24,369 nt of DNA from positions 1-24,369 of the IMG/VR virus record IMGVR_UViG_3300033153_001095; one strand, given 5' to 3'. The notes beneath the pieces were generated by a model. It was not told the origin of the DNA. It saw nothing but the letters and a program-made list of their open reading frames with translations, and did not search any database. This document shows positions 2,552 through 13,060 of this stretch, one piece after another. Position 1 is the first letter of the stretch. Every line of letters begins with the position of its first letter. Both the position numbers and the translations under genes were made by a program. This stretch comes from a virus.

Positions 2552-3733
2552 ATGGGAAAGACTAAGTATAAGTTATTGAGTATAGATGAGAGATTAGCAT
2601 TGTATGATGAATATCATGGAGTAGGTTTCGGAGATAAAGAAGTTAAGTTAGAAGAGATGATGCTTAGACTTGGTGTATCACGAGCTACGTTAAGTAGATG
2701 GCTTCAGAAGATTAAGCAAACACTACAAGATAAGCCACATGAAGATGAGTACTTATTCTTGAAAGGCAAATCTGATTATGTAGATTATGAGAAAAACCCT
2801 AATGGTGATCCTGTTCGTGGTTGGAAGAAGTATGATACAGATAATGAAAAGAGATTTACAGCTATTAAAGAATCAGTAGTAAGATTGATGGCTGGTATTG
2901 AACCTATAGAGAATGTACCTGCTCCTGAGTTCCTCTCTAATAAACTATGTAATGTATTCATATCTAATGACATTCATATTGGTGCACTTATGCAAGCTAA
3001 GAGTACTAGAGACAGAAACTGGGATACAGATGTAGCTATTGATACGTTGAGAACTGCTATTGACTTCTTAGTTGAGAATAGTCCTCAAGCAGACGAAGCT
3101 ATTGTAGTTGATTTAGGTGACTTGACTGAGATGGATGACTTCAAGAATGCAACTCCTCATAGTGGTAATAGTTTAGATGTAGATGGTAGATACAGTGATG
3201 TAATAACTGCTGCAATGGATGCAATGGTGTACATGGTAAACAGTGCACTTAAGAAGCATAAGCTTGTTAGGTTTATCAATATAAGTGGTAATCATGATAT
3301 TACTACAGGTCATGCTATAAGAGCGTATGTAGTGGCGTGGTTTAGAGAAAATCCTAGAGTAATAGTTGATAATGGTCATGAAGATATTAAGTATCATAAA
3401 CACGGTAATACTATATTAGGTTTTGCTCATGGTGATGGTCTTAAGATGCAAGATGGTGGTGAAGCTATGGTAATGCATAATCCTGATTGGATTGAGTCTA
3501 ACCAGAATAGGTATTTCCACTTTGGTCATAATCACAAAGACAAAGTATTTGATGGTAGATTGTGTAAGAGTGAAAGCCATAGAAACTTAGCACCACTAAA
3601 CAACTGGGCAAGTCATAAAGGTTTTGGTAGAAGTGCAGGAACAATGAAATGTATTACATACCATGAGTTAGCAGGAGAGTACAATAGAGGTACTTTCAAT
3701 GTAATGATGATGGAGAATGAAGATGGAAATTAG
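2552..3733 (+). CDS. Calcineurin-like metallophosphoesterase with N-terminal helix-turn-helix
   Basis: This 393-residue protein carries the full metallophosphoesterase signature: D140-x-H142 (NDIHIG), GD at 189-190 (DLGDLTEMDD), GNHD at 246-249, an AHGDG segment at 292-296 and GHNH at 325-328. The spacing fits a two-metal phosphatase/nuclease core (Mre11/SbcD/calcineurin superfamily). Residues about 30-56 look like a helix-turn-helix (LGVSRATLSRWLQKIK), so it may bind DNA. It starts at an ATG preceded by AAAGGTG and opens the packaging operon just before the terminase genes. A role in processing DNA ends or branched DNA for packaging is plausible but inferred; a phosphatase acting on other substrates is not excluded. 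All metal ligands appear intact. Confidence 0.88.
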   Translation: MGKTKYKLLSIDERLALYDEYHGVGFGDKEVKLEEMMLRLGVSRATLSRWLQKIKQTLQDKPHEDEYLFLKGKSDYVDYEKNPNGDPVRGWKKYDTDNEKRFTAIKESVVRLMAGIEPIENVPAPEFLSNKLCNVFISNDIHIGALMQAKSTRDRNWDTDVAIDTLRTAIDFLVENSPQADEAIVVDLGDLTEMDDFKNATPHSGNSLDVDGRYSDVITAAMDAMVYMVNSALKKHKLVRFINISGNHDITTGHAIRAYVVAWFRENPRVIVDNGHEDIKYHKHGNTILGFAHGDGLKMQDGGEAMVMHNPDWIESNQNRYFHFGHNHKDKVFDGRLCKSESHRNLAPLNNWASHKGFGRSAGTMKCITYHELAGEYNRGTFNVMMMENEDGN

Positions 3734-3917
3734 TAAAGATGTGCTGCTAAAAGCACTAGGTCTACAGTATATTAAAGACATTGACGTAATAACAACTAAA
3801 GTTGATACAGCGTCAGATTTCGAAGAAGTAGCTAAACTCTATGATGAGTTAGCAGAAATTACTAGAGCTGCCGGTAAAGACTTTGCAGCAGTTGAGGCTA
3901 AGTATGAAGTACAATAA
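3723..3917 (+). CDS. Small hypothetical protein, helical
   Basis: I chose the ATG at 3723 (64 residues) over the in-frame ATG at 3717 because GGAG at 3712-3715 is 7 bases from 3723 but only 1 base from 3717. The gene overlaps the end of the phosphoesterase gene by 11 bases, indicating coupled translation. The protein is small, acidic and predicted helical (EEVAKLYDELAEITRAAG), with no transmembrane segment or known motif. I do not recognise it; its position in the terminase operon suggests a phage accessory role. Confidence 0.65.
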   Translation: MEISKDVLLKALGLQYIKDIDVITTKVDTASDFEEVAKLYDELAEITRAAGKDFAAVEAKYEVQ

Positions 3918-4113
3918 AACTGATAGACGTACTGCTAACCATGAATCAGATTACTGTATAGAGTGGAGTGATGGTACGCTAGTGTGGGTTAAAGATGATA
4001 CTATAGTAGATTTTAATGATATGCTTGAAGCAGAACAAGTTAATGATTTACTAATTTTAATATGTACAGAACTAAAAGAGTATAAATCTATGTATGAAGG
4101 ATTATGTAAATGA
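3904..4113 (+). CDS. Small hypothetical acidic protein
   Basis: The ATG at 3904 has GAGG 6 bases upstream and gives 69 residues; an upstream in-frame TTG at 3883 would lie deep inside the preceding gene and is less likely. It overlaps the preceding gene by 14 bases. The protein begins with a basic stretch (MKYNKTDRRT), continues with a beta-like acidic segment (DYCIEWSDGTLVWVKDD) and ends in a helix. No family recognised. Its TGA overlaps the ATG of the next microprotein (ATGA). Confidence 0.65.
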   Translation: MKYNKTDRRTANHESDYCIEWSDGTLVWVKDDTIVDFNDMLEAEQVNDLLILICTELKEYKSMYEGLCK

Positions 4114-4229
4114 GTAATGATGGTTTAGTTATAGGATTAGTACTGCTTTGTGCAGCGATGGCTGTTACTCTAGTATATAAGTTGTTGTTTACTTCCCCTG
4201 ATGAAGATAATTCCACTTGGATAGGATAA
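4110..4229 (+). CDS. 39-residue single-pass membrane microprotein
   Basis: ATG at 4110 overlaps the preceding TGA (ATGA) and the frame runs to TAA 4227-4229. The peptide has a short polar N-terminus, one hydrophobic helix at about residues 6-24 (LVIGLVLLCAAMAVTLVYKL) and an acidic C-terminal tail. It ends 3 bases before the small terminase start, filling an otherwise empty 120-base gap. Gap-filling, stop/start overlap and a clean transmembrane helix support a real gene; function is unknown (a holin-, antiholin- or superinfection-type role is speculation). Confidence 0.6.
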   Translation: MSNDGLVIGLVLLCAAMAVTLVYKLLFTSPDEDNSTWIG

Positions 4230-4232
4230 GAT

Positions 4233-4928
4233 ATGATTGAAATTGAAATGATACAAGAACAACTTGGTAAGAAGAAAGGTGAACTCGTTACACAAGGAAC
4301 TGTTGATGAGTTGAACAACTTAGTTGACGACCCTGAGTATGGTGAAGAGTTCTTAGATATGTATGTAAGCTACTTCAATGTAATGGAAGGTAACTCTGCT
4401 TGGTCTACTCCTAAGTATATGAATGCTATGAAGTTCTTCTGTTTGGTTGAAGGTGGTCATAATGGTGTGGATGCTTACGTAAAAGTATTCCCTGAAAGAC
4501 TTGAAGCTAGAGTCAAAAGAGGTCAAGGTAAAGATAATATGGGTGGCGAGTCCTCTCGTTATAACGCTAGTGCTTTAGTTAATGAGATACGTAAAGTTGC
4601 TACAATTCCTGTACAGCTAATACATAGACATTTGTTACACGAGGCGATCCTAGTAAATGCTGACTTGATGTTACATGCGAAGAGTGAGATGGTTCAACAA
4701 AAAGCTGCTGAGACTCTTATTAGAGAACTTAAACCAGTTGAAGATACTACTATCAATCTTAAGGTTGGTATGGATGATGAAACTAGAAGTGCTCAACGTG
4801 AGTTAGTTGACCATGTAGGACAGATAGCTCTTAACCAGCAAAAGATGTTAGCATCTGGAATGAGTATCTCAGAGATACAAAGGCTGAATATTAAAAAGCC
4901 TGAAGTAATAGAAGCGGAGGTAGAGTAA
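4233..4928 (+). CDS. terS: Probable terminase small subunit
   Basis: This 231-residue, largely helical protein sits two genes upstream of the large terminase. Its middle (residues about 60-150) has the pattern I associate with small-terminase proteins of podovirus-like phages: a 'YMNAMKFFCLVEGG' helix, 'VDAYVKVFPER', a 'SSRYNASALVNEIRKVA' segment and 'RHLLHEAI', followed by 'KAAETLIRELKPVED'. Small terminases recognise the packaging site on phage DNA and stimulate the large-subunit ATPase. The C-terminal about 50 residues are helical and charged. GGATAAG precedes the ATG. The TAA overlaps the next ATG (TAATG). The assignment rests on pattern recognition and position, not a catalytic motif. 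Confidence 0.75.
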   Translation: MIEIEMIQEQLGKKKGELVTQGTVDELNNLVDDPEYGEEFLDMYVSYFNVMEGNSAWSTPKYMNAMKFFCLVEGGHNGVDAYVKVFPERLEARVKRGQGKDNMGGESSRYNASALVNEIRKVATIPVQLIHRHLLHEAILVNADLMLHAKSEMVQQKAAETLIRELKPVEDTTINLKVGMDDETRSAQRELVDHVGQIALNQQKMLASGMSISEIQRLNIKKPEVIEAEVE

Positions 4929-5251
4929 TGGTTAATGTACAATTTGATAAATGTAGTGAGTGTGGTAGACCTAAAGATTACGTTAGGTTTGGTAAAGACG
5001 ATAAACCTATACTTTCGTGCAAGTACAACCATTATAGTGCACCTAAACCGCATTGTGTATTTACATATCCTGATGGCAGTACTACTAAGTGTAAACTTGG
5101 CAGTATTATAAAAGGTATACGTAAAGGACTCCATAGACCCATAAAAGTTACGTTTGTAGATATCAATAAAAACGATTTGAGTATGCAGGAGTTCATTTAT
5201 ACTTGTACTATCGCTTTACATGGTTCCAAAGGAGAAGTAGAATATGTCTAA
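4928..5251 (+). CDS. Small Cys-rich (zinc-ribbon-like) protein
   Basis: This 107-residue protein starts with a CxxC pair (KCSECGRPKD, residues 8-14) followed about 18 residues later by a Cys and His (SCKYNH); a further Cys pair lies in the middle. This is compatible with a small zinc-binding fold, though the second half-site is not a canonical CxxC. The remainder is basic and may bind nucleic acid. A strong GGAGG (4916-4920) lies 7 bases before the ATG, which overlaps the terS stop; its own 3' end overlaps the terL start by 8 bases. Position suggests a packaging or late regulatory accessory; no specific family recognised. Confidence 0.65.
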   Translation: MVNVQFDKCSECGRPKDYVRFGKDDKPILSCKYNHYSAPKPHCVFTYPDGSTTKCKLGSIIKGIRKGLHRPIKVTFVDINKNDLSMQEFIYTCTIALHGSKGEVEYV

Positions 5252-6998
5252 ACTTGCAAATATACCAGATAAGCCCAGTGTGGATTGGTTACTATCAAAT
5301 GTAGATTTAACTTTTAAAGGTTACATCCCTAGTGTAGTAGCATTTGAATTTTTCAACTTTATTAGACTTGCTCTTGGAGAAGAACCTGAGAATGCAAATC
5401 CATTAGCTCATTACTTCTTAATTGATACAATCTTTCAACAACCTAATGTTGCGTTCTATTTTGAGGCTAGAGGTATCAACTATGAAGAGATTAAAGGCAA
5501 GACAGCTATTATGTGTTGTCGTGAGTTCTCTAAATCTACATTGATTGGTACATATCTACCGTTGTTTATAGCGTGGAAAGGTAGTATCCCAGGTTACGGT
5601 AAAGTGAACTATGGTCTGTACGTTGGGGATAGTATGCGAAATAATGTTAAGACTACTATGAATACTATTGAATTAGTTTTCTTAGAGAGTGAATGGTTAG
5701 TTGACCAATTTGAGTCATATAGATTCACAGATGAGGTTATGGAATTAGTTAGACATCCATCTACTAAAGCTGAACTAGCTGCATTTCAGAGAGCTGTAGA
5801 TATGGGTAAGAAGAAAGAACAAGTACCTGGTAGAAGTAAGCGTAAGTTTGCTATGAAAGGTGTTGGTGCCGCAACTGGTACTCGTGGTACGAGAAGTGGT
5901 CTAGATAGACCTCAGTTTGCTATCTTCGATGACTTGGTATCTAGTGAGACTGATGCTAATAGTGAAGTTGTATTAGGCGGTATTGAGTCTACGATAGATT
6001 CAGATGTACTTAAAGCACTACATGGTGCTGGTAACTTTAGTATGATTATTGGTACACCATATAATAAGAAAGATCCAGTTTATCGTAGACTTGAAAGTGG
6101 TAGATGGGTTCCTATTGTATTTCCTATGTGTAAAGAGATAAATGTAGATATTACTAAAGAAGAGTTTGAAGGTGTGTGGGAAGATAGACATAGTTATGAG
6201 AAAGTTATGAAGCGTTACTTAGATGACTTAGCTGAGAATAAAATGCGTTCATTTAACCAGGAGCTTATGCTTAGAATTACTAGTGAGGAAGACAAACTTA
6301 TCCCTGATAGTTATTTGACTTGGTATAAGCGTTCTGACATTATTAATAGAGGTGGAGAGTATAATTGGTATATTACTACCGACTTTACAACTACAGGTTC
6401 TAAGGGTTCAGATTTTAGTGGTATGGCAGTGTGGGCTGTCAATAGTAATGATGATTGGTTATTAGTAGATTTAAGTCTTAAGAAACTTGAACTAGAAGAC
6501 CAGTATAAAGAGCTGTTTAGACTAGTTAATAGATACAAACGATTCACAGGTAACATAGTGGTTGGGGTAGAGACAGATGGGCAACAGAAGGCTCATTTAC
6601 ATGCTATACAGCAACGTATGTCTAAAGAGAATGAGTATTTTACATTAGGTCAACAGAAAGGTTCTACATCTTTAGGTATTAGGTCTGCTAGTGTTCCTGG
6701 TAAGAAGCATGACAGGTTTAAAGCTGTAGTACCAATGTTCCAGACTGGTAAGATTTGGTTTCCTGAAGAACTGCGTGAGACAAGTAGTATGCAAGAATTA
6801 CTGACTGAGTTACAGTATGTTACGTTTTTAGGATTTGGTTCTACTCATGATGATGGTGCTGACCTTATCACACAAATGCACTTAATGGAAACATTTAGTC
6901 CTAGTACAGTTGCTCAAACAGCTCATCCTAAAGATGCTATGTGGTTTGATGATGTAGATGATGATTATGAGAGTGGTATGAGCTCATATGTAGTTTAA
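5244..6998 (+). CDS. terL: Terminase large subunit (packaging ATPase/nuclease)
   Basis: This 584-residue protein has the two-domain architecture of TerL. The N-terminal ATPase shows a variant Walker A (CREFSKST, residues 92-99, as in T7/N4-type terminases rather than GxxxxGK[ST]), Walker B (FAIFDDL, 225-231) and the coupling motif (IIGTPY, 268-273). The C-terminal RNase H-like nuclease shows the expected acidic residues: D380 (TTDFT), E443/D445 (VETDG) and D537/D540 (HDDGAD). It pumps DNA into the procapsid through the portal and cuts concatemers. AAGGAG precedes the ATG. Length is normal and no residue looks missing. The next gene is an adaptor, not the portal, which lies 7.5 kb downstream. 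Confidence 0.95.
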   Translation: MSKLANIPDKPSVDWLLSNVDLTFKGYIPSVVAFEFFNFIRLALGEEPENANPLAHYFLIDTIFQQPNVAFYFEARGINYEEIKGKTAIMCCREFSKSTLIGTYLPLFIAWKGSIPGYGKVNYGLYVGDSMRNNVKTTMNTIELVFLESEWLVDQFESYRFTDEVMELVRHPSTKAELAAFQRAVDMGKKKEQVPGRSKRKFAMKGVGAATGTRGTRSGLDRPQFAIFDDLVSSETDANSEVVLGGIESTIDSDVLKALHGAGNFSMIIGTPYNKKDPVYRRLESGRWVPIVFPMCKEINVDITKEEFEGVWEDRHSYEKVMKRYLDDLAENKMRSFNQELMLRITSEEDKLIPDSYLTWYKRSDIINRGGEYNWYITTDFTTTGSKGSDFSGMAVWAVNSNDDWLLVDLSLKKLELEDQYKELFRLVNRYKRFTGNIVVGVETDGQQKAHLHAIQQRMSKENEYFTLGQQKGSTSLGIRSASVPGKKHDRFKAVVPMFQTGKIWFPEELRETSSMQELLTELQYVTFLGFGSTHDDGADLITQMHLMETFSPSTVAQTAHPKDAMWFDDVDDDYESGMSSYVV

Positions 6999-7013
6999 GT
7001 GTAGCTTAATCGG

Positions 7014-7027
7014 TAATACGGTATTAT
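7014..7027 (+). promoter_or_regulatory. Small palindrome overlapping a candidate -10 box
   Basis: TAATAC (7014-7019), G, GTATTA (7021-7026) is a 13-base perfect palindrome around one base. It overlaps TATTAT at 7022-7027, which is preceded by CGG and resembles the GGTATAAT boxes before other late blocks. It may be an operator-over-promoter or a weak hairpin ending terL. The stem is AT-rich, so an RNA hairpin would be weak. Confidence 0.3.
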
Positions 7028-7054
7028 TGGGTAAAAATTTACTGGAGATTGCAT

Positions 7055-7738
7055 ATGACTGTAGCAGATGTAATTGAGGATGCTAAGTACGGAGAACTCT
7101 CCCAGCTTGGTGTAGTCAAGAAATTAGAGAAAACAGCAACTAAAGCTGATGGTGAGAAGCAGATACTGAGTTATATTAACTTAGGTCTTATAGAGATTTA
7201 TAAACGATTTTCTATGCGTACTGAAGAGACTGTTATCACTATGGTAGAAGGTCAATCTTTATATACGATAGATATTGCTAATATATACCATGACCCAGAT
7301 AATCTGGATGGTTACTTAAATGCGTTACCAGGAGAATTGAATGCAGTACTAGGTGCGTATGATGAGGAAGGTGAAGCTTACCCTTTAAATGATGAGACAG
7401 ATGACTTGAGTGTTAATACTCCTTCGTATAATGTTATTCAAGTTCCTAATCCTGTAGCCGGTGAAGGTGTATTCATTATATATAATTCAGCTCCAGATAG
7501 GCTTATATGGCAAGAAGATTTATCGTTAGTTACGCTACCGATTGCTCCTGCATTACTAGAAGCATTGTTGCATTATATTGGATATAGAGGACATGGTTCT
7601 GTAGATGGTAGTATACAAGCAGAGAACAATACACACTATATGAGATTTGATGCTAGTTGTAAACGTGTTGAAGCGTTAGGGTTAAATACTCTAGATGCTA
7701 TTTTAGGAAATAATGTACAAGAAAAAGGATTTGTGTAA
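7055..7738 (+). CDS. Head-tail adaptor/head-completion-like protein
   Basis: I chose ATG 7055 (228 codons including stop) because GGAG lies at 7044-7047, 7 bases upstream; an in-frame TTG at 7049 is less suitable. The protein opens with a helical segment (VADVIEDAKYGELSQLGV ... ILSYINLGLIEIYKRF) typical of phage adaptor-like proteins described as DUF6682-like: an N-terminal helix bundle that counts rows of residues, then a beta middle (VITMVEGQSLYTI), then a C-terminal helical part (APALLEALLHYIGYRG) and a final helix. Such proteins bind below the portal or in the neck. The family link is by pattern and position. TAA overlaps the next ATG. Confidence 0.65.
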   Translation: MTVADVIEDAKYGELSQLGVVKKLEKTATKADGEKQILSYINLGLIEIYKRFSMRTEETVITMVEGQSLYTIDIANIYHDPDNLDGYLNALPGELNAVLGAYDEEGEAYPLNDETDDLSVNTPSYNVIQVPNPVAGEGVFIIYNSAPDRLIWQEDLSLVTLPIAPALLEALLHYIGYRGHGSVDGSIQAENNTHYMRFDASCKRVEALGLNTLDAILGNNVQEKGFV

Positions 7739-9864
7739 TGAAAAGAGCACCCTCTTCAGGCGTATCTAGTGGTGAGGTTTCTCGTCAACTAGATAATACT
7801 GCCTATGATAATGTTAAAGTTGTAGCATTAGCTATTACAGATGTAGCACTTGTAGCTGATAATATAGATGATCTGATTGCTGCCTCAGGTAATATAGCTG
7901 AGATACTAATTGTTGCTGGACTAGAGGATGAGATAATATCTCTAGTTACTGATAAAGCTACGTTAGATAGCCTATTTGCAGATAAAGCCACACTAGACTC
8001 TCTAGTAGCTGATAAAGATAGTTTAGACGCAGTAGCTCTTGCTTTAGCAGAAATTATTATAAATGCATCTAATATCGATGATATAGTTACTATAGCAGAT
8101 AGTATAGCAGATGTAAATACTATAGCTGATGATATAGCCGCAGTAATTACTGTAGCTGTTAATATAGCGGATATTACTAACTTTTCAGATGTGTACTATG
8201 GAGCAAAAGTTGCAGATCCTACATTACGAAATGATGGTTCTGCTATGGTTTCAGGAGATATGTACTTTAACACTATAGCTTCTGAACTTCGTTATTACAA
8301 AGGTACTGTATGGGAACCAATTCCGACACTTACGAAGGAAGAAGTTAAATCGTTATATGAGTCTAATGACAATACTAATGTATATAATGATATTGAAAAA
8401 GCTAAAGTAACTCATATTTCTGTTACACAAGCAGTTGATTTAGATGCTATAGAATTAAGAATAGAGGGTTTAGATAATGTAGATAATACATCTGATGCAA
8501 ATAAACCAGTATCTGATGCAACGCAAACGGCACTAGACCTTAAAGCACCAATAGCAGACCCTACGTTTACTGGGACAGTAAGTGGTATAAGTAAGACAAT
8601 GGTAGGATTATCAAATGTTGATAATACTTCAGATACCGCTAAACCAATCTCTACTGATACACAAACTGCATTGGACTTAAAGACAAATAATGTAGATTTA
8701 GTCACAGTAGTAGGAAATATCAATAACCCATTATTGAGTATACCATTACATAACTCATTAGATATAGAAGCAGGTAATGGTAATGTAAGTTTTAGTAGGG
8801 GTACAATAGCTACTTATGTAGATAGATATGGAATATTAAAATACGCTACTACTAATGAACCTAGATTTGAGGATACTGGACTTCTAGTTGAGGGTGATAG
8901 TACTAATGTGTTATTAAACTCAGAGATTGCTGTTATTCAAAGTGGTACAGTTGATGCTAATGTAATTGCTTCACCTGATGGAAATGTTACAGCCGATAAG
9001 GTTATCCCTGACGATGGTAACACTGTTGCTAGATGGGCTAAGTATTTTAATAAAACATCAGGCTCAATCTATACTGTTAGTTCATTTAATAAAGCGGGTG
9101 AAATGAATCGTATAAAACTAGGTTTTTATGAGAGCGGTGATAAATTTGCCCATTTCGACTTATCTGATGGAACTATCGTAAGTGAAGATAGTGGTATTGT
9201 TGGAAAGATTGAAGCCTTAGATGGTGGTTGGTATAGATGTTCTGCTACTTTCACTGCGGGAGCAACTTCAACCACAGACAATGCTTATGTTACTAGACAA
9301 GATAATGCAGATGCAGATGGAACGAAAGGATGGTATACATGGGGTGGACAAATTGAAGAATTGTTGTTTGCTTCAAGTTATATACCTACTATAGATAGTG
9401 AAGTTACTAGAAGCAAAGATGACTGTTATGTATCTTTAGCTAATAATACTATTGCGGGCAGTGCTCCATCAACTACTGTAGTAGACTTTGATAGATTAGG
9501 GTTAATGGTTGGTGCTCAGGCTTATATTTATTCATCATCTGTTACTCCTAGCCTTGCTATGTGGTTTTGGGCTGGTCACAATTCTTATGCTAGAGAAGGA
9601 ATAGACACAAATATAGATTTTTATAATAACTATAGTTTAGGAAAAAGTAGAGCTTGTGTAGTAAATGATTTATCAGAAACTGTATTATACAACAACGGTA
9701 TAGAAGTAGGTAGAAGTGCATTAGGTGATAATGCTCCAGTTAACGTACTTACTTCAATAAACATAGGCAGTAACCAGTCTTTGGATGATAACTTATTTGG
9801 GCACATTAAGAATTTTAGAATGTATGACAAAGCATTAATGCCCAGCGAAGCGTTAATAGTATAA
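7738..9864 (+). CDS. Long tail fibre with coiled-coil stalk and LamG-like tip
   Basis: This 708-residue protein is built in modules. Residues 1-20 are a short N-terminus, then about 20-155 form an Ile/Ala/Asp heptad-like stalk (repeats such as 'NIDDIVTIADSIADVNTIAD') common in podovirus-type fibres. Residues about 155-205 contain a 'GDMYFNTIASELRYYKGT' beta motif frequent at fibre anchor junctions. Residues 244-316 hold two 'GLxNVDNTSD...TQTALDLK' repeats. Residues 324-390 are a module shared with the next gene. The C-terminal about 315 residues contain a carbohydrate-binding-like domain and a LamG-like tip ending in 'LFGHIKNFRMYDKAL'. It likely attaches to the tail and contacts the host surface. 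Start ATG overlaps the upstream stop (TAATG). Confidence 0.88.
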   Translation: MKRAPSSGVSSGEVSRQLDNTAYDNVKVVALAITDVALVADNIDDLIAASGNIAEILIVAGLEDEIISLVTDKATLDSLFADKATLDSLVADKDSLDAVALALAEIIINASNIDDIVTIADSIADVNTIADDIAAVITVAVNIADITNFSDVYYGAKVADPTLRNDGSAMVSGDMYFNTIASELRYYKGTVWEPIPTLTKEEVKSLYESNDNTNVYNDIEKAKVTHISVTQAVDLDAIELRIEGLDNVDNTSDANKPVSDATQTALDLKAPIADPTFTGTVSGISKTMVGLSNVDNTSDTAKPISTDTQTALDLKTNNVDLVTVVGNINNPLLSIPLHNSLDIEAGNGNVSFSRGTIATYVDRYGILKYATTNEPRFEDTGLLVEGDSTNVLLNSEIAVIQSGTVDANVIASPDGNVTADKVIPDDGNTVARWAKYFNKTSGSIYTVSSFNKAGEMNRIKLGFYESGDKFAHFDLSDGTIVSEDSGIVGKIEALDGGWYRCSATFTAGATSTTDNAYVTRQDNADADGTKGWYTWGGQIEELLFASSYIPTIDSEVTRSKDDCYVSLANNTIAGSAPSTTVVDFDRLGLMVGAQAYIYSSSVTPSLAMWFWAGHNSYAREGIDTNIDFYNNYSLGKSRACVVNDLSETVLYNNGIEVGRSALGDNAPVNVLTSINIGSNQSLDDNLFGHIKNFRMYDKALMPSEALIV
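8467..8685 (+). repeat. Tandem fibre repeat (two 27-codon units)
   Basis: Codons 8467-8547 and 8605-8685 encode two related 27-residue units that share GL.NVDNTSD..KP.S..TQTALDLK. The motif is widespread in phage fibres and commonly marks trimerising stalk segments or recombination joints. The copies are separated by a 57-base linker encoding a 'PTFTGTVSG' strand. Confidence 0.8.
8707..8907 (+). repeat. 67-codon fibre module, copy 1 (copy 2 at 9958-10158)
   Basis: The encoded 67 residues, beginning at VVGNINNPLL and ending at the Asn of DSTN, align without gaps to those encoded at 9958-10158 in the next gene; I count 45 identical residues. The shared module is central in the first fibre but near the N-terminus in the second, which is consistent with duplication of the receptor-binding part of one fibre followed by divergence. 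Confidence 0.8.
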
Positions 9865-9873
9865 GGATGTAGT

Positions 9874-10281
9874 ATGAGTAACAATATGGGATGGGGACTT
9901 AAAAGTATAGCTGATAAGTTCCGTAAAGGTATATACACAGAAGATGAGTTGAGTAGTGTTATAGGTAATATAAATAATCCATTGCTAGATATGCCACTAA
10001 ATAACTCTTTGTCTATGAAACAAGGAGTCGGTGAAGTTACATTTACTAGAGATACGATAGCCACATATATTGATAGGTATGGCATACTTCAGTATGCTGC
10101 TGTAGATGAACCTAGATTTGAGAAAGATGGGTTTTTAGTTGAGGGTGAGAGTACTAATCTATGTTTGCAAAGTGAGGATTTTAACACTACATGGAACTGG
10201 CAAAATATAACACCAGTATCTAAAGTAGCACCTGATGGAAGTAACAATGCCTATAAACTAGAAGAAAACTCAAACACATGA
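9874..10281 (+). CDS. N-terminal part of a second, paralogous fibre (frame-broken)
   Basis: This 135-residue product begins after a good AAGGATG ribosome binding site with a short unique N-terminus (about 28 residues, basic-helical: WGLKSIADKFRKGIYTEDEL), followed by the 67-residue module shared with the upstream fibre and the first strand of a carbohydrate-binding-like domain. It stops at TGA 10279-10281 within that domain. The missing part continues in the +1 frame as the next CDS; the open frames overlap only between 10262 and 10281. Removing one A from AAAA at 10265-10268 would fuse them without a gap in similarity. It lacks the long coiled-coil stalk of the first fibre. Confidence 0.75.
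   Translation: MSNNMGWGLKSIADKFRKGIYTEDELSSVIGNINNPLLDMPLNNSLSMKQGVGEVTFTRDTIATYIDRYGILQYAAVDEPRFEKDGFLVEGESTNLCLQSEDFNTTWNWQNITPVSKVAPDGSNNAYKLEENSNT
9958..10158 (+). repeat. 67-codon fibre module, copy 2
   Basis: This is the partner of the module at 8707-8907: 45 of 67 residues identical by my count, no gaps, including RYGIL.YA...EPRFE and VEG.STN. It begins 28 codons after the start of the second fibre gene. Confidence 0.8.
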
Positions 10282-10291
10282 TGAAATAACA

Positions 10292-11074
10292 ATGAGCGTA
10301 TTTGCTAAGGCAGACGAAAGGGATTGGATTATAATAAATGCGTCAAGTTCTTACGCTAAAGTGTGGTTTAATGTTTCTACTGGAGAAATAGGTAACATAC
10401 TTAATGGTACAGCCAAGATAGAAAAAGTGGGTGATTTTTACAAATGTAGTGTAACGGGTAAGTTTTTAACTGGCGGCAATTTTACCATGTATATACAAAA
10501 TTCTATAGCTGATGGAATAGAAACTTATGACGGAGTAGTAGGAAGTGGAGCTATTTTTTATGGTGTTCAGTTAGAAAAGCTACCTTTTGCTTCAAGTTAT
10601 ATACCTACAGAAGCTAGTGAGGTTACTAGAAGTGGTGACTTTTGTGAAGTTGATTATAGTGGAAACATAACAGAGAGAAATGACAACACAACATGGATAG
10701 CAGACTTTGATAAACTAGGAGACATATCTACTCAACATCAATTTATAGCTTCAATTAAAAATGTTCTAAATACTAACATTGTTGCTTCATTAAATGGTAA
10801 TAATAACTTACATTCTAACTTTACTAGTAGTGGAAGTATAACAACATCTAATTTTGCAAGTGGAAGGGTAGCTGTATCTATAGATGAAGCTACACACTCA
10901 TTGTATGTAAATGGAACATTAGATACTTCCATTGCAGTAGACAGAGATGCTTTACATAGCCCTCAAGGACTAAGAATAGGAGTTAGAGATATAGGTGAAG
11001 AACTATTTGGACACCTTAAAAACTTTAGAATATACGACAGAGCATTGACACCAACTGAAATAGGAATGGCATAA
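10292..11074 (+). CDS. C-terminal part of the second fibre: CBM-like plus LamG-like tip
   Basis: The 260-residue frame from ATG 10292 starts with 'MSVFAKADERDW', which in intact phage fibres lies inside a carbohydrate-binding-like domain rather than at a start. It continues to 'FASSYIPTEASEVTRSGD' and a LamG-like domain ending in 'LFGHLKNFRIYDRAL', parallel to the upstream fibre throughout. No ribosome binding site is visible before 10292; the frame is open back to 10262. It is therefore better seen as the 3' part of the gene starting at 9874, expressed only by frameshifting or reinitiation, or not at all. The stop overlaps the next ATG (TAATG). Confidence 0.75.
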   Translation: MSVFAKADERDWIIINASSSYAKVWFNVSTGEIGNILNGTAKIEKVGDFYKCSVTGKFLTGGNFTMYIQNSIADGIETYDGVVGSGAIFYGVQLEKLPFASSYIPTEASEVTRSGDFCEVDYSGNITERNDNTTWIADFDKLGDISTQHQFIASIKNVLNTNIVASLNGNNNLHSNFTSSGSITTSNFASGRVAVSIDEATHSLYVNGTLDTSIAVDRDALHSPQGLRIGVRDIGEELFGHLKNFRIYDRALTPTEIGMA

Positions 11075-11121
11075 TGAGAAAATTTAGAAGTAATGCGGAA
11101 GCAAATGACATAGGTGCTTAA
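11074..11121 (+). pseudogene. 15-codon leader fragment of the third fibre-like gene
   Basis: ATG 11074 overlaps the upstream stop in the TAATG arrangement used by confident starts in this window, but runs only 15 codons (MRKFRSNAEANDIGA) to TAA 11119-11121. The +1 frame then opens at 11114 into the 293-residue fibre-like protein. Removing one T from the TT at 11118-11119 would join '...DIGA' directly to 'KNFIINGGFDIWQRG', which reads like a normal fibre N-terminus. I regard this as the displaced true start of the next gene. Confidence 0.5.
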
Positions 11122-11995
11122 AAACTTTATCATCAACGGTGGTTTTGATATTTGGCAGAGAGGAAATGGTACATTTACTACTAACCAATATTCTGCTGAT
11201 AGACATTATACTGGTAATGGTAGAGGTGTTGTAAAAGAAGTAGATTCAGTAGAGGGAAATGTACATAAATGTACTAATGATGTAGCAAGTGGTGTTTTTC
11301 TTGCTCAGCCTATAGAATTGAAAATACTTGGTAACAATAATGAGTTTAAAATAGGTAATACTTACACATTAACTGCTAGGGTTAAGAGTTCAGCAAAAGT
11401 TAGGTGTTATGCTCACTTTAGAGTAGGTGTAGCGGGTACAGCTACGGAAGTATTTACGGGTGATGAGAAAGGCGGTAATGATGTATATGAGAATATATCT
11501 TGGACTTTTACAGTTACCGCTTCTGCTAGTGGCTCACAAAATAATTTACTTATAAGATTATGGTCAAGTACAGATGAAGCTGATTTTAGGGTATCACATT
11601 GGCAATTAGAAGAGGGTAGTGTATTTACTGGTTTTGAGAAAAGACCTATAGGAATGGAATTGGCTTTATGCCAGAGATATTACTTTAGAACTGGAAGTGG
11701 TTATGCTTATTCTACTTGGGCTACTGGCTTTGCTGAATCTACTACTGAATTTGAGTGCGTGTTTCACTTGCAAAATACATTAAGAGCGATTCCATCTATA
11801 TCATCAAGTGGAGCAATAAGAGTAAGGAGCGGAAGCACTCATGCGGTTAGTGCTTTAAATATCTCAGGTATTACAATCACATTATCACAAGTGCACATAA
11901 TAGCTACAACGACTGGTCTAACTGCTGGTCAAGGTGGTAAGCTAACTGCGAATAATAATAATGCGTCTTATGTAGCTTTAGATGCAGAATTATAA
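11114..11995 (+). CDS. Third fibre-like protein with carbohydrate-binding-like domain
   Basis: The 293-residue frame has a GTG at 11114, with no convincing ribosome binding site (a GGAAG lies 13 bases upstream). The N-terminal half (residues 1-180) carries the motif 'NFIINGGFDIWQRG', then 'YSADRHYTG', then a jelly-roll ending in 'HWQLEEGSVFTGFEKRPIG', a pattern common in phage fibre proteins. The 'ELALCQRYYFRTG' segment (about 187-200) marks the start of a distinct C-terminal tip rich in Ser, Thr and Gly. It probably binds host surface glycans. The start is probably displaced by a one-base insertion relative to ATG 11074. Confidence 0.8.
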   Translation: MLKNFIINGGFDIWQRGNGTFTTNQYSADRHYTGNGRGVVKEVDSVEGNVHKCTNDVASGVFLAQPIELKILGNNNEFKIGNTYTLTARVKSSAKVRCYAHFRVGVAGTATEVFTGDEKGGNDVYENISWTFTVTASASGSQNNLLIRLWSSTDEADFRVSHWQLEEGSVFTGFEKRPIGMELALCQRYYFRTGSGYAYSTWATGFAESTTEFECVFHLQNTLRAIPSISSSGAIRVRSGSTHAVSALNISGITITLSQVHIIATTTGLTAGQGGKLTANNNNASYVALDAEL

Positions 11996-12003
11996 AAGGA
12001 TAT

Positions 12004-12495
12004 ATGATGGAAATTGAAACAGTAAAAATACAAGGTGATGGGTACTTAGTTAACGGTGTTTTGGGAGTACCTAAAGCAGATGAAAATAGACACTATCAAG
12101 AAGTTAAGATTTGGCTAGAGACTAATACTCCTGAGTCTGAATTTACAGAAGAAGAGTTATTGACTAAAGTTACTGCTCTAACTGCTATCAAAGCTAAGTT
12201 AGTTAAAGAGAAGGCTTTAGAGGGTATTGTCATTACTCATAATACAGTGGCATATGATGCTCACGGTAGGGCTATTGGTAATATGAGTGCTGTAATGGGT
12301 ATAGCTAACTTTAAATTTAATCAAGCTGTATCTATAGGTGGTGCAACAAACGAAGAAGCTTATCAGGCAATCTACAAAGATACTGTAATCTTCTGGAGAG
12401 GTGCTGATGATAAAACTCATGAAGTTATGATAGAATCAGTTTGTGAAGTGCTTGAGAAAGCGATGCTAGCGGTAGCAGAAATAGTGGTGGTATAA
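12004..12495 (+). CDS. DUF4376-like fibre accessory protein
   Basis: This 163-residue protein begins after AAAAGGA; ATGs at 12004 and 12007 are both possible. The C-terminal half follows the DUF4376 pattern seen in fibre-associated phage proteins: a helix rich in Lys/Glu (residues 61-74), a beta hairpin (GIVITHNTVAYDAHGRA), an 'IGNMSAVMGIANF' helix, a conserved 'FWRGADDKTHEVM' strand and a final helix. Such proteins lie next to fibre genes and are thought to act in fibre assembly or at the distal tip. Its place at the end of the fibre block supports that. The family match is by pattern. Confidence 0.65.
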   Translation: MMEIETVKIQGDGYLVNGVLGVPKADENRHYQEVKIWLETNTPESEFTEEELLTKVTALTAIKAKLVKEKALEGIVITHNTVAYDAHGRAIGNMSAVMGIANFKFNQAVSIGGATNEEAYQAIYKDTVIFWRGADDKTHEVMIESVCEVLEKAMLAVAEIVVV

Positions 12496-12496
12496 A

Positions 12497-13060
12497 ATGG
12501 AAAAGATGAAGACGATATTGTTAAGTGTATGGTATTTGGTAATACTTGTAACTAAAGGTGTATGGGCTAGGATATTTTATCCTGTTGCATATTTGTTCTA
12601 CGATTGGACTATGAGAGGTACAGTTAGACGTAATTATACTATACCTGAATCAATAGCTAAGAATCCTATTAAGTGGTTCTTATGGTTACATTATGATGAT
12701 GCACAACCTCCATGTGGCTCTAAAGAGTTTATAGCTGACAAGTGTACAAGATGTAGGTTCTTATGTGCGTACAAGTGGAATACAAGAAATAGTATGTACA
12801 ATATAAATTATAACTATTTAAGTAACCAGAGTAAGATAGTTAGTCATACTGAACCAGGTGGTATTTACCAATGGAACAGAAAGCTTAGAAGACGTAATGG
12901 TGATATAGGTAGTCAGTTAGTATGGTTTAGTACTGAGAAAGAACAATATAGATTCTTGTATAGTATGGCTAAGATATGGTTCAACAGAGATGTTACATTT
13001 TACTTTGGTTGGAACCCAAATACTAACGGTAGATTTACTCTAGCGTTAAAGATAAAATAA
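12497..13060 (+). CDS. Hydrophobic N-terminus phage protein (DUF7338-like)
   Basis: This 187-residue protein opens with a hydrophobic stretch (residues about 5-37, LLSVWYLVILVTKGVWARIF then YPVAYLFYDW), followed by an aromatic- and Arg-rich domain with Cys pairs (PCGS at 73-76, KCTRC at 83-87) and a 'YKWNTRNSMYNINYNY' segment. The pattern 'ARI.YP.AYL..D...R....' plus 'W..RN...N' is what I associate with DUF7338, a phage family of unknown role. It starts one base after the upstream stop and precedes the lysis genes, so a role at the inner membrane is possible. It lacks a good ribosome binding site and may rely on coupling. Confidence 0.65.
   Translation: MEKMKTILLSVWYLVILVTKGVWARIFYPVAYLFYDWTMRGTVRRNYTIPESIAKNPIKWFLWLHYDDAQPPCGSKEFIADKCTRCRFLCAYKWNTRNSMYNINYNYLSNQSKIVSHTEPGGIYQWNRKLRRRNGDIGSQLVWFSTEKEQYRFLYSMAKIWFNRDVTFYFGWNPNTNGRFTLALKIK

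Follow-up and report, generated by a model that had tools for sequence, protein, structure and literature searches.

A split accessory tail-fibre gene, apparently inactivated, in an uncultured podovirus-type phage

The closest described precedent for a fibre gene lying in two open frames is stf of phage lambda. As described in PMC9659904, a frameshift split this one fibre gene of lambda PaPa into ORF401 and ORF314, while Ur-lambda retains it intact, and lambda stays viable on its main receptor-binding protein. For the domain affected in the present locus, PMC7296036 describes RcGTA head fibres as allowing attachment to the polysaccharide capsule, and RcGTA head spikes as holding oligosaccharide-binding sites. 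By sequence profile, the RcGTA head spike fibre Rcc01080 (6tb9), E217 gp45, Pa193 gp46 and the tail fibre gp17 (9occ) carry the same CBM-like domain (E-values of 1e-47, 2.5e-22, 4e-22 and 1e-19, respectively); it is complete in all four, whereas the second fibre gene studied here appears to lack one strand of it. The cyanophages S-CAM4 and S-WAM2 resemble our phage in having two adjacent paralogous fibre genes with this domain, but both copies are intact there, and these are Kyanoviridae, unlike the present phage.

The window analysed is an entire IMG/VR record (24,369 bases), assigned to viruses and carrying no completeness figure. Its core is of podovirus type, with an SU10/Schitoviridae-like portal, a terminase and a major head protein. 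The portal matches PF23899 with an E-value of 5.4e-130 and, in the best rows, shares 46-49% identity with portals of Schitoviridae type; its relatives in IMG/VR reach 66-71%. Near-identical relatives of the window by DNA were absent from phage records. Elsewhere in the window, the 556-residue product of 739-2409 had no Pfam or PHROGs match and a relative in contig L012 at 29% identity, and two small ORFs at 3717-4113 gave no match in a PHROGs search. For an ORF listed from GTG 21554, ATG 21566 is the likelier start, with a TAATG overlap with the previous stop. The relative of the major head protein in contig L009 (4108-5310) has about 68 residues fewer than that of the window, in frame.

The fibre cluster opens with fibre 1 (7738-9864), followed by the split gene 2 (9874-11074), gene 3 (11114-11995) and, last, a small gene that is intact (12004-12495), all on the + strand. 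Fibre 1 is an intact, anchored protein of 708 residues with an N-terminus common to other phages of its group and a C-terminus of CBM-like and Laminin_G_3-like domains. A promoter and terminator scan of 7600-12600 yielded no excess of sites over shuffled sequences.

In the initial annotation, gene 2 had been described as a single fibre gene divided over two frames, and this description is borne out. The ORFs 9874-10281 and 10292-11074 both exist in the window, and their frames overlap only at 10262-10281, the 3′ frame being open from 10262. Each half is homologous to the C-terminal part of fibre 1, with 64% identity over 77 residues (E = 5e-29) and 33% over 284 residues (E = 3e-23). We built a 402-position profile from the C-termini of six intact homologues (fibre 1, L011, L012, L013, L014 and L016), leaving gene 2 out. 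The 5′ frame (9874-10281, + strand), which encodes 135 residues behind a ribosome-binding site, covers profile positions 1-112, and the 3′ frame (10262-11074, + strand), with 270 open codons and its first ATG at 10292, covers positions 129-401; the E-values of 2e-58 and 1.9e-43 are far beyond chance. The claim that the halves together align end to end does not survive this comparison, as some 16 positions (113-128) are absent between them. Both parts also match phrog_5939, a family with a CBM-like and Laminin_G_3-like C-terminus, significantly (E = 1.3e-20 and 5.3e-27), and a Laminin_G_3 match has an E-value of 1.6e-10, yet neither frame of gene 2 holds a complete CBM-like beta-sandwich.

The reported lack of a ribosome-binding site for the downstream ORF was also upheld: ATG 10292 has no Shine-Dalgarno match and scores +0.4 kcal/mol versus -5.8 for the start at 9874, and 89% of the window's other 704 ATGs score the same or better. 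A frame open for 270 codons has a chance probability of about 2e-10, and the break is considered recent because the ribosome-binding site at 9874 is kept and the 3′ frame has remained open over this length. Relatives of the 3′ half were not found by direct scan of IMG/VR; a search of phage records matched eight, none of which covered 80% of the query.

The search for intact homologues that had been proposed for this gene did return unsplit relatives, standalone second fibres among them. Unsplit ORFs occur on IMG/VR contigs L011-L016 and at all eight loci examined in isolates or annotated records. Contig L015 carries a second fibre (7931-9934) directly 3′ of the first; this second fibre opens with a similar N-terminus, its start MAWTGYSLKAIADRFREGIY resembling MSNNMGWGLKSIADKFRKGIY. 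On L016, a fibre that shares the N-terminus of fibre 1, and a terminase relative, are both followed downstream by a standalone second fibre (5992-7206). Among the rows of the profile search, no other gene was broken at the gene 2 junction. One homologous fibre, on L017 (IMG/VR 2740892449_000010), does lie in two frames, with its break at 6803-6839 in the Laminin_G_3-like domain; a split at a different place favours sporadic lesions or errors over a conserved site.

To measure what is absent at the junction (10258-10295, + strand), we used the distance from the P of a PDG motif to the S of an SVFxKA motif. This distance is 64 nt (21.3 codons) in gene 2 versus 105 nt in fibre 1 and 96-126 nt (32-42 codons, median 36) in 36 homologous domains, so that 11-20 codons are missing alongside the change of frame. 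The set of 36 includes fibre 1 and the near-identical pairs L105/L106 and L118/L119, and leaves out the re-fetched copies L101-L104, L109 and L111 as well as L117, which is cut by a contig end; as entry required the interval to be spanned within one ORF, its members are unsplit by selection. Four domains from cellular genomes measure 33-36 codons, a fifth cellular-genome locus (L134) having no profile match, and two solved phage or GTA fibres (RcGTA Rcc01080, 6tb9; E217 gp45, 8env) measure 36 each. The next anchor interval is 297 nt in gene 2 versus 294 nt in fibre 1. Gene 2 is thus 41 nt shorter than fibre 1 across the junction interval and 3 nt longer across the next, and frame change and loss therefore share one short interval.

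These lengths do not support the proposal that a one-base insertion in AAAA (10265-10268) caused the break, since gene 2 shows a net shortening of 41 nt at the frame change and not a gain of one. A single out-of-frame deletion of about 40 nt is the simplest event at this junction; the data also fit an in-frame deletion together with a second, one-base change. The end points of the deletion cannot be placed, because the relatives recovered for gene 2 did not exceed about 64% identity, a value reached in one half, and its exact size is uncertain because the family carries indels in the anchor region. Repeats pairing across the junction, as might account for a deletion, were looked for and not found.

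A structural model of the domain, computed from 24 aligned relatives with L131 as first row, has a mean pLDDT of 93.6; a model of the entire C-terminus of fibre 1 was weak, with a pLDDT of 56.7, and was set aside. By fold, the domain matches carbohydrate-binding modules. For either model, most Foldseek matches are to lectin or jelly-roll folds of a generic sort and are uninformative on function. The segment between the retained motifs is strand 64-71 with its turn, so the lost segment appears to correspond to a complete beta-strand of the domain, which is of carbohydrate-binding type. The initial annotation held that deleting one A would restore continuous coding through the shared domain. Removing an A does join the frames, but the domain is left short, and the joined product would still be without a core beta-strand. 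Joining the frames alone would consequently mislead on the protein model of gene 2, because a structural strand is missing.

Gene 3 seems to have suffered a second break, which was missed in the initial annotation. Its probable original start is an ATG at 11074 (11074-11121, + strand), which overlaps the gene 2 stop as TAATG and opens 15 codons before a stop; the remainder of the gene, of the KNFIINGGFDIWQRG... tail-fibre family, lies in the other frame, where it follows directly on a stop (11114-11995, + strand). The 11114 frame starts no more than two codons ahead of the conserved motif KNxxINGGFDIWQRG. We compared it with 83 relatives, namely 79 IMG/VR loci (of 236 relatives found) and four phage records. 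In all 83 the frame is open at least 17 codons further upstream; in 79 of the 83, those with a possible start found away from a contig end, the first such start is 14 or more codons upstream. Within the window, four further gene pairs (at 739, 4928, 7738 and 21566) share the TAATG overlap seen at 11074. In addition, the frame of ATG 11074 carries RSNAEAN, which resembles RSNSELN at the same place in L134, a short match judged by eye. Because the relatives extend further upstream and the ATG 11074 frame shows this overlap and this likeness, gene 3 too seems to have lost its frame near the 5′ end, between 11074 and 11121.

On balance, we lean towards reading 9874-11074 as a single accessory gene for a receptor-binding tail fibre, paralogous in part to the fibre 1 C-terminus, within a recent inactivation of accessory fibre genes by natural lesion of the lambda stf kind: a loss and not a switch. 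Under this reading, gene 2 would formerly have encoded a second carbohydrate-binding receptor-recognition protein, now inactive. A recent single deletion of about 40 nt would have removed one beta-strand of the domain and thrown the remainder out of frame, so that translation of gene 2 would yield a 135-residue fragment alone and no working second fibre. A similar out-of-frame event would have struck gene 3 near its start, and the phage would be left relying on the anchored fibre 1. Gene 2 and stf are alike as accessory fibre genes (a side tail fibre in lambda) with two open halves produced by a frame-disrupting lesion and with intact homologues elsewhere. Lambda, however, is a cultured siphovirus with a known history, whereas the window is an uncultured podovirus-type fragment, and the lesion in gene 2, unlike that in stf, involves a loss of about 40 nt and an apparently broken neighbouring fibre gene. 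If natural, the lesion is of modest interest, as a case of receptor-binding gene loss in environmental phages in which the unanchored spare fibre would be the first to decay and the anchored copy is kept intact.

The strongest alternative, to which we give substantial but lesser weight, is that the assembler dropped one or more short stretches in the fibre region, for example in a strain mixture, and that the genes of the real phage are intact. The record is metagenomic, and it is at fibre loci that assemblers are confused by strain mixtures. Paralogous repeats surround the site, both frames are perfectly open apart from the break, and two out-of-frame breaks inside about 850 bases may point to one local misassembly. 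The relative in L134, from a Sulfurimonas MAG, is frame-broken across the same region, and such artefacts may exist in such material. Against this, gene 2 is short by about 40 nt and not by one base in a run, and the window is otherwise free of sense-strand frame conflicts over the 13,368 bases covered by proteins of seven relatives (L004-L009 and L016). The sole sense-strand query among these proteins to match two frames was the gene 2 homologue; one minus-strand shadow ORF does likewise. The covered part holds 90 of the 200 homopolymers of at least four bases in the window, and uniformly error-prone sequence is, on all this, unlikely. The inactivating mutation and the sequence error raised in the initial annotation thus both stand as possibilities; an assembly fault would be a caution for metagenome fibre annotation, nothing more. 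What the locus presents is ordinary gene loss or an assembly fault, with no new control mechanism.

The other explanation raised at the outset, a programmed +1 frameshift or a phase-variable A-run controlling fibre length, is very unlikely. Both breaks would need the same +1 frame change, and the 3′ frame is intact at each. The run at the gene 2 break, however, is only AAAA, one of the 200 such homopolymers, with neither a long homopolymer nor a tract of short tandem repeats, and no known +1 recoding signal was recognised by eye at either stop. The break is not at a conserved position: in all 36 spanning domains the site is read in one frame, which is part of how they were selected, no homologue in the profile search rows is split here, and the split relative on L017 breaks elsewhere. 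The joined product, by the domain model, would be defective for want of its core strand. We likewise attach very little weight to the variant in which the shortened split gene 2 and the split gene 3 are both +1-recoded, or toggled by reversible short deletions, to give full and truncated accessory fibres.

A one-base insertion alone, whether natural or an error, is if anything harder to credit: the frames do overlap at the A-run, where a single-base change joins them, but the 11-20 missing codons are left unaccounted for and two events would be needed. That the halves are two independent, always separate genes is the least credible reading and was rejected, for although each has an ATG, that at 10292 is without a ribosome-binding site and falls, in the model, within a beta-strand of the domain, and all 36 homologous domains spanning the site, spanning being their inclusion rule, read through it in one ORF.

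The small intact gene that follows the fibre genes (12004-12495, + strand) has a homologue 3′ of the fibre genes in L134. On this Sulfurimonas MAG contig, relatives of gene 2, gene 3 and 12004-12495 stand in the same order at 2956-5659, with many frame breaks. The contig hints at a Campylobacterota host, or is a misbinned phage contig.
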